From Euzebya tangerina (lineage in GTDB: Bacteria > Actinomycetota > Nitriliruptoria > Euzebyales > Euzebyaceae), in contig NZ_PPDK01000001.1 of the NCBI RefSeq assembly GCF_003074135.1, forward strand, positions 3,224,001 through 3,288,000: DNA of 64,000 nucleotides. Direction: 5' to 3'. Made by a program: the position numbers and the translations under genes. Under the pieces are notes generated by a model that saw only the letters and a program-made list of their open reading frames with translations, was not told the origin of the DNA and did not search any database. Below are positions 22,748 through 25,631 of this stretch, one piece after another (positions within the stretch are counted from its first letter, which is position 1; each line of letters opens with the position of its first letter).

Positions 22748-23101
22748 ATGCCACTGTCCGACCGTGAACGGCAGATCCTCAACGAGATCGAGGACGCGCT
22801 GGCGACGGAGGATCCCAAGTTCGCGAGCAAGGTGGCCACACTGCCTCGCTCGGCGGAGCAGACCCGGCTTCGCTACGGGATCGCCGGGTTCGTGGTCGGT
22901 GTACTCATGCTGCTGGCGATCGTGTTCCACATCCTGTGGGGCTTCGCCGGCTTCGTGTTGATGCTGGTCAGCGCCGTGGTGGTGTTGAACCAGCTGAAGA
23001 ACCTCGGCAACGATCGAGCCCTTGACCTGGGCGGGCAGATCAAGGGTGGGTTCGCGCGGTACATGGAAGGCCGCCGCAAGGGCACCGACCAAGCCGACTG
23101 A
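22748..23101 (+). CDS. DUF3040 membrane protein
   Basis: A 117-residue actinobacterial DUF3040 protein. It begins with the family signature MPLSDRERQILNEIEDAL and DPKFASKV, then two hydrophobic helices (about 42-60 and 63-82) separated by a short turn, and a basic C-terminus. GGAG at 22738 places the start at ATG 22748. The family is found near division and cell-wall genes in many actinobacteria, but no such neighbours are visible here. Function unknown. Confidence 0.87.
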   Translation: MPLSDRERQILNEIEDALATEDPKFASKVATLPRSAEQTRLRYGIAGFVVGVLMLLAIVFHILWGFAGFVLMLVSAVVVLNQLKNLGNDRALDLGGQIKGGFARYMEGRRKGTDQAD

Positions 23102-23115
23102 GACCTGTCGCGGGA

Positions 23116-23285
23116 CGCTAGTGGTCCGTAGTTCAAATCTCTTTGGCATCCGCGGCCCCCGCATCACCGCTGGACTGCGTTGCGCTCGCTTGAATGACCC
23201 GCCATGCGGCGGCTTCGCGCGCCTTGCCAGCGGCGCGCGGCTGACCACGGCTGGCGCAAAGATCTTCTCCTACGGACCACTAGCG
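23116..23285. repeat. 170-bp palindromic element with perfect 16-bp ends
   Basis: CGCTAGTGGTCCGTAG at 23116-23131 is matched exactly by its reverse complement at 23270-23285. Further inward the two halves stay complementary with gaps (for example ATCTCTTTGG against GCAAAGATC, and CCGCTGG at 23168 against CCAGCGG at 23226), so the whole element can fold into one long imperfect hairpin around position 23200. It has no credible ORF and its right end contains the stop codon of the transglutaminase gene. It looks like a non-autonomous MITE or a large REP-type element. Confidence 0.75.
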
Positions 23286-25631
23286 GTTCGTCAGGACCCG
23301 CAGCCTGACCCACACACGTCGCCATGCCGGCAGGTGATCGGTGAGCTTGCCGACCAGGCTGGCGGCGGCCCGCTCGGCCTGCTCAGCGTCGTGTTCGGTG
23401 ACCGCCGGCGCGAAGATCGCCCGAGTCGAGGCACGAGCCAGGACGGGCGCGGCGTGATGGCCATCAGAGATCCGCGGGAAGAACTCCTCACCCGTCTCTG
23501 CCGGGTGTCGCGGCCGGCCGAGGGCACGCGCGACGTTCTGCACCGCCGCCCCGGCCGCGTCGATCCGCTGCTGCGGTGAGTGGTCCTCCGTGCCGCGTTC
23601 GCGGCGACGACGCACGCCCAGCGCAGCCAGGCCAACGAGCGTGACACCCCCCACCACCAGGATCCACGGCACGCCACGCTCCTCCTGGACGAGGCCATCA
23701 CCCTCGACGTTCGGGGCCGGGAAGGGGTCGGCGAAGTCCTCGGGGGTCGTGGGGATCTGCGGATCAAGACCGCCCGGTCCGAGCGGCGAGCTGGCGAGGC
23801 CCGCGTCGCCCTGCTGCTCGGCGAAGGTCTGGCCTGGGACGATGCCGTCGGCACCGGTCACCAACACGTTGCCGTCAGACCGTGGGGTCGGTTCGAAGGG
23901 GATCCATCCCAGATCGCCGAAGTCGACCTCCACCCAGGCGTGTGCGTTGCCGTTGGTGACCTCGTACAGCCCGTCCGCTCCGAGCACGCCTGGCGTGTAG
24001 CCGACCGCCAGCCGTGCTGGTATGCCCAGCGTGCGCAGCATGACGGCCATGGTCCCGGCGAACTGCTCGCAGTACCCCTCACGTCCGTTGATGAAGCGGG
24101 TGAGCGCGGTCGCCCCCAACCCGGGATCGGGCTGTGTCGAGTAGGTCCACGTCCGCAGCTCGTTCTGGATGGCGAGCGCGGTGTCGAACATGGTCTCCGC
24201 ACCGGCGTCGCCCACGATCTGGCGCGCCAACGTCACGACCTCGTTCGGCACGTTGTCCGGCAGCGTCGTGCCGGCGGAGCCCGGACTTGGCCGCGGAACC
24301 GCGCGGAGCTGGTCGGCATCCGGTTGAGGCAGAGCCGCGCGCACGGTGTAGGTGTCGCCGTCCACGAGTGGCGCCGAGCCGGGCACGGTCAGCGTGGCCG
24401 AGCGCCGGTCATAGCGCAGCACCTCCGCCTTGGCGCCGGTCACCTCGATCGGTTGGAAGGGCGCTGGTGCCAGCACCGCACCACCCTCGATCTGGGCGGC
24501 GACCGTGATGGACACGTCCACCGGCTCGACCGGGATCGGTGGTGGGGTGTCGACCAGCCCCTGGACGGGGTTGCCGCTGATCGTCCCGGTGGTCCACTGC
24601 TCCGCCTCGTCGTAGGTGTCCAGGGACGTGGTCCGCAGGTACACCGGGCGAGGTGTCTCGACGCGGACGACCGGCCCCTGGTCGGTGGCGACGAGTCGCT
24701 GCCGGATGTCGACGATCGGGTTGGTGGTGATCGTCGTGCCGGTCCCGCCGCGGGCCTGGTAGAGCGGCTCGTCCCTGAACCCTGGGAGGAGCGAGGCGAA
24801 GGTGAGTCCGAGCACCACGGCCGCCGCGGTGAGCACCAATCCGCTGGCCGGGATCACCGGTGATCGGCGTGACCGCCCGGACAGGCCCGGAACCGAGACC
24901 CGCCGTCCGAACTCACCGGTCGCGTTGGCATTGCCCAGCAGCAGCAGGGTCCCGGCGGCGATCAGGAAGCCGATCGTCGGCGCGGTGATGCTGAGCGACT
25001 CCGGTGCGATGGCGAGCGGTGTGGCCCACATCACCAGCGCGGCGATGATCGCCTTCGAGGGCGATCGGAGGACGAAGAGCATCCCGTCGGCGAGGTAGGC
25101 GACGACCCACGTCCCCATAACGGCGAGCAGCAGCAGCCCGGCCTCGGCGAACGTCGGCGAGGGGCGCAACTCCACCAGTTCCAGGCCACGGATGAAGAGG
25201 TCCCGGACGGCAACGAGTGTGTCGGGGGTGGGCAGGAGTCCTGCGACGGCGGTGGAGGGGAGGAAGGCGATCGTGACGAATGCCAGCAAGCTGGCGGCGC
25301 TCATCAGGAGGTGGATGATGGGACCGGCGCCAAGGCGACGCGCACCCCACCCGATCCCCAGGGCCAGGACCACCCCGCCGACGATCGGCCGAACCCACTC
25401 CGTCCCGATGAAGACCGACCGGATGGGCACGACCGCGGCCAGCAGGAGCAGCAGTAGGGCGATCGTCATGACGTCGTCGTCGACTGCTGGCCCCTGGCGT
25501 CCGGGACGCCGGCCACGGGGTGGTGGGATGGGCTCGGGCGAGGGCAGCGCCACTCTGGAGCGTCGGCTGGAGCGACGATCACGCCCGGACCGGGAGGGCG
25601 GGCTGATCGGCGGGGTCAGTGTGCTGCTCAT
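23280..25631 (-). CDS. TgpA-like transglutaminase-domain membrane protein
   Basis: A 783-residue protein of the DUF3488/transglutaminase-core family. After a basic N-terminus come about seven hydrophobic helices (residues 50-280), then a large exported region. The transglutaminase core near 490-580 has [17 protein letters not shown] (catalytic Cys), [17 protein letters not shown] (His and Asp). One more helix follows near 655, then a basic cytoplasmic tail of DUF4129 type. It forms an operon with DUF58 and MoxR genes, overlapping the former by four bases. Such trios are linked to cell-envelope or assembly functions, but the substrate is unknown. Its stop codon lies in the palindromic element. 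Confidence 0.9.

Follow-up and report, generated by a model that had tools for sequence, protein, structure and literature searches.

What is the palindromic element that lies between two convergent genes of Euzebya tangerina and overlaps the stop codon of one of them, and how can it sit there without damage to the gene? The locus belongs to a 64,000-nt stretch (the window, C1:3224001-3288000) of a 4.78-Mb assembly in 12 contigs that is 98% complete. An initial annotation described a 170-bp element, potentially able to fold along its whole length, with perfect 16-bp terminal inverted repeats, an imperfectly self-complementary interior and a right end that supplies the TAG of the transglutaminase gene; it favored a MITE or a REP-type sequence. 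Our analysis indicates that the element is very probably a non-autonomous MITE of the IS630 / Tc1-mariner superfamily.

Boundaries, copies and distribution

The perfect 16-bp inverted repeat is present as described (23116-23131 and 23270-23285), but 170 bp overstates the length of the element. In an alignment of the five genomic copies, all begin with CTAGTGG and similarity stops at CCACTAG, so that only CTAGTGG... and ...CCACTAG are held in common; the CG/CG that flanks the window copy is absent from the others. Since this outer CG/CG of the 16-bp arms is common to no other copy, it is target sequence that is palindromic by chance; the joined flanks of the window copy contain the palindrome CGCTAGCG. 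The arrangement fits a 160-bp body with 11-bp inverted repeats, bracketed by a duplicated TA inside CTAG (Table 1). The full ends read CTAGTGGTCCGTAGTTC... and ...GAGAAGATC, and perfect ends CTAGTGGTCCGT...ACGGACCACTAG are found in three of the five copies. Target-site duplication had been reported as not visible just outside the element; a compatible TA pair is located inside the 16-bp arms. The right boundary is CTAG in three copies; one copy has CTAT instead, and the copy that has diverged most has CCTG. Small size, perfect 11-bp terminal repeats and no transposase gene are the architecture of a MITE.

Table 1. Features of the locus and further genomic copies. Positions without a contig name refer to the window.
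Feature	Position	Strand	Basis or remark
Miniature transposon body, 160 bp, GTGGTCCGTAG...CTACGGACCAC	23121..23280	.	Common to 5 genomic copies, 94-100% identity
Left terminal inverted repeat, 11 bp, GTGGTCCGTAG	23121..23131	+	GTGGTCYGT ends also on IS630 elements of same-order genomes
Right terminal inverted repeat, 11 bp	23270..23280	-	Inverted-repeat match, copy alignment, IS630 ends of relatives
Left TA, putative 2-bp target duplication, within CTAG 23118-23121	23119..23120	.	Left CTAG in 5/5 copies
Right TA, putative target duplication, within CTAG 23280-23283	23281..23282	.	CTAG on this side in 3/5 copies; TA retained in 4/5
Transglutaminase TAG stop: TA of target duplication plus last base of element	23280..23282	-	Identical TAG in reconstructed empty site
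TgpA_N / transglutaminase-core protein, runs towards element; start codon uncertain	23280..25469	-	PF11992, PF01841
DUF3040 protein, convergent neighbor	22748..23101	+	PF11239; orthologous pair without element in congener G001
Further copy	C1:3103974	+	94-99% identity
Further copy	C1:3113748	-	94-99% identity
Further copy	C1:3177419	-	94-99% identity
Further copy	C2:295667	+	94-99% identity

The initial annotation proposed a search of the element's own genome. The host carries the window copy and four more, at five loci and in both orientations; to these dispersed, near-identical copies, as expected of a MITE family, is added one diverged, longer relic (approximately C3:417583-417790). Aligned globally with the element, this relic scores 86, and none of 300 shuffles exceeds 43. 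It contains extra interior sequence, has the ends CTCGTGGTCTGT...ACAGACCACTAG and represents an older subfamily. Four of the five copies fall within 143 kb of the 4.78-Mb genome (C1:3103974-3247283), a clustering that suggests local hopping or a shared segment history. At C1:3318371-3318460, a 38-bp unit is repeated in tandem about 2.5 times; it opens with CCCCTAGTGGTCCGTAG, which equals the MITE's left end, and no partner end accompanies it. Four end-like sites (C1:1130923, C1:3369914, C2:59258 and C3:452339) are single, have no partner end nearby and were rejected.

Paired ends with the correct spacing are confined to the host among the 396 genomes of the phylum that were searched; three intact copies carry them, and a reversed control gave none. 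In none of 295 further genomes of the phylum does the exact 14-bp end CTAGTGGTCCGTAG recur, so that this search yielded no direct parent. Phage and plasmid collections contain no match to the element and viral contigs none to its core, and a search of 100 related genomes with the element returned nothing full-length. Weak DNA matches in five relatives were discarded: none contains AGTGGTC/GACCACT, and the three with readable flanks show no element ends. One viral-contig match to the end pattern, a single end in AT-rich DNA, was taken as chance. The outcome that the initial annotation had named as refuting a MITE, a single copy with orthologous sequence in unrelated strains, was not observed.

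A locus without the element, another check proposed at the outset, exists in the congener G001, where the orthologous DUF3040 and transglutaminase genes are adjacent and convergent at ~70% DNA identity. Given this divergence, the locus shows absence of the element rather than a base-perfect empty site, and the exact CTAG is not conserved there. The named genomes in which relatives of the transglutaminase occur belong mostly to Nitriliruptorales and allied Actinomycetota.

Transposon ends, folding and competing explanations

The pattern C-TA-[GTGG...CCAC]-TA-G suggests the IS630 family, and an IS630 origin was predicted from the ends before relatives were searched for transposases. IS630 elements insert at TA and duplicate it (PMC2170065), with a preference for the TA in CTAG (Tenzen and Ohtsubo 1991, as cited in PMC2170065). 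The boundary sequences of the MITE match this target; with two right boundaries decayed, the duplication may be TA (2 bp) or CTAG (4 bp), which the five copies alone do not separate. Our initial guess, an IS701-type duplication of all 4 bp of CTAG, was dropped.

A search with PF13358, the IS630 catalytic domain, gave hits in 16 of 61 genomes. Two same-order genomes contain complete IS630 elements (L095 in G014, L115 and L118 in G006) whose ends lie 1147-1153 bp apart (~1.15 kb). All three end on both sides in CTAGTGGTC(T/C)GTCG and carry CTAGTGGTCYGT...ACRGACCACTAG, so the MITE and these autonomous elements have GTGGTCYGT on both sides in common; in three other loci (L099, L102, L103) one end, CTAGTGGTCCGT, was seen. 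CTAGTGGTCYGT occurs nine times in 84 kb of the relatives' IS630 loci, where the reversed motif is missing, and not once in 142 kb of their other loci. NCBIfam NF033545 identifies the L095 and L115 proteins as IS630 transposases (249-255 bits; with L103 included, 249-269 bits; cutoff 100), and Pfam assigns DDE_3 and helix-turn-helix domains to all three. Likeness to the MITE is restricted to ~9-12 bp of the end, and the interiors are unlike. Four further IS630 elements of relatives (L096, L098, L107, L119) have other ends (TAGTGTAGTG, TAGTGTCCTG) and CTAG at both boundaries; CTAG thus borders all seven complete elements examined, across three end types. The transposase frames of L095 (979-2091), L115 (979-2085) and L103 (948-2003) reach the element end (...GAC CAC TAG), and their stop codon consists of the target TA and the next flanking base.

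Several copies, same-ended complete transposons in relatives and an element-free locus in a congener together bear out the MITE reading of the initial annotation. A cognate transposase in the same genome, usual for a MITE though not required, was not found: PF13358 detected no IS630 transposase in the host or in three congeners, and a full IS630 protein query found no relic, in a search that had no positive control among its genomes.

This missing helper would also suit a CTAG- or YTAA-targeting MITE that depends on a different transposase family, such as one of IS5 type like MITEPsy1, which is linked to IS5 and likewise uses CTAG (PMC3189936). Such an origin is very improbable: candidate partners of IS5/IS4 type (PF01609, DDE_Tnp_1) and IS701 type (PF13546, DDE_5) were not found in the host genome, and the ends match IS630 elements of the same order.

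The position of the window copy between convergent genes and its fold could instead point to a conserved structured RNA or a bidirectional terminator at their 3' ends. The 170 nt do fold end to end, as the initial annotation proposed (-84.1 kcal/mol, z = -4.9 against dinucleotide shuffles). Once the arms are removed, the remaining 138-nt interior is no more stably folded than shuffles (z = -0.2), and its self-complementarity, also part of that proposal, is weak (alignment score of the two halves 5.5; shuffles mean -4.4, sd 3.5, maximum 6.0). The fold excess comes wholly from the terminal repeat and therefore provides no evidence of RNA. A terminator scan detected no U-run or terminator-like site, Rfam gave no match, and the element is missing from the orthologous locus of the congener. 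Nor would a terminator role suit the copy flanked by pyrC-like and carA-like genes of the same strand, or the copy between divergent genes. We consider an RNA or terminator very unlikely. No tRNA remnant is present in the window. A REP-type palindrome mobilized by a RAYT (Y1) transposase would likewise be palindromic, extragenic and repeated, but terminal inverted repeats with a CTAG target, five copies only (REPs usually number above 100 per genome, PMC2817692) and the match to IS630 ends leave this part of the initial annotation unnecessary and its probability close to nil.

Stop codons and the CTAG target

The IS630-type MITE supplies the TAG of the transglutaminase gene in a literal sense (23282-23280), as first annotated, but joining the two flanks restores ...CGC TAG CG..., hence the stop predates the element. 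A TAG stop lies under four of the five copies. The other three are placed exactly on the TAG that ends a long high-GC3 frame, namely an SMP-30/gluconolactonase-like gene (C1:3103974), a HAD hydrolase gene (C1:3177419) and a dihydroorotase-like (pyrC-like) gene (C2:295667); the gene after the last is presumably carA-like, judged from its sequence. The fifth copy (C1:3113748) lies between apparently divergent genes.

The background for these positions was taken from 166 kb of the host genome (the window, L059-L063 and L085-L089), with genes assigned by a simple codon-usage caller. Outside the elements, 43 CTAG sites were observed where base composition predicts 474, a depletion of about 11-fold, and a second-order expectation is 145. 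Gene-ending TAGs account for 21 of the 43 sites and only six lie inside genes. Against this background, at least four of five copies would fall on a stop with P = 0.17 (0.28 among non-coding sites). Target preference and avoidance of genes therefore suffice, and no special targeting of stop codons is shown.

In three of the seven complete IS630 elements of relatives (L115, L118, L119), the start of the element likewise coincides with the terminal TAG of a long high-GC3 frame. Together with the four of five MITE copies, they are consistent with a tentative reading, which we hold at somewhat below even chances, in which TAG stops form a regular, protein-neutral safe niche for IS630-type elements in GC-rich actinobacteria; these counts may not exceed the CTAG background. 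If this reading is true, CTAG would be purged except at gene ends and insertion there would regenerate the stop.

Probable mobilization in trans and relation to known MITEs

By analogy with the IS630 family, the GTGGTCCGT repeats would be recognized by an IS630 transposase supplied from elsewhere, which would excise the 160-bp element and insert it at the TA within a CTAG, duplicating the TA. The first base of the element is G and its last is C; CTAG would thus be rebuilt on both sides, and a gene that ends in ...C-TAG would therefore keep its stop codon and its protein. With about half of the CTAG sites being stop codons, surviving copies would then accumulate exactly at gene ends. The element most likely moves by cut-and-paste, with an IS630 transposase acting in trans, a model already put forward for RUP and IS630-Spn1. 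With the search for IS630 transposases negative in the host and the three congeners, the donor would be missing or lost, and the MITE family may now be stranded; at 98% completeness and in 12 contigs, the assembly could also have missed a helper that lies outside it.

The element is a new MITE family of a known kind, and its closest relative in kind is RUP, the repeat unit of pneumococcus. RUP, too, is ~0.1-0.2 kb long, carries no gene, is extragenic and has a terminal TA and IS630-like inverted repeats, and its movement in trans by IS630-Spn1 has been proposed (PMC2229807, PMC3049150). It differs in having ~108-110 copies and an IS630 partner in its own genome, as opposed to five copies of unrelated sequence for which no partner was found. 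Correia elements are far more numerous than the five copies of the present element. The Correia / NEMIS elements of Neisseria (PMC2229807) are likewise small palindromic MITEs with terminal repeats and a terminal TA, but are unrelated in sequence and host. BOX repeats of pneumococcus overlap gene stop codons without evident truncation (PMC3049150), as the element does, but belong to another repeat family of different structure, in which BOX itself encodes the stop codon. The relatives' complete elements (L095, L115, L118) have the CTAGTGGTCYGT ends on both sides and the CTAG target, with L115 and L118 also on TAG stops, but are 1.15 kb long with a transposase gene and resemble the MITE in their ends only.

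With this finding, an actinobacterial lineage that has received little study gains a MITE family. It also offers a simple mechanical reason for the sharing of stop codons between transposons and genes: an element that seeks CTAG lands where CTAG survives, mostly as C-TAG stops, and leaves the protein as it was. For annotators it carries a warning, as overlaps between transposons and stop codons need not represent functional 3' elements.
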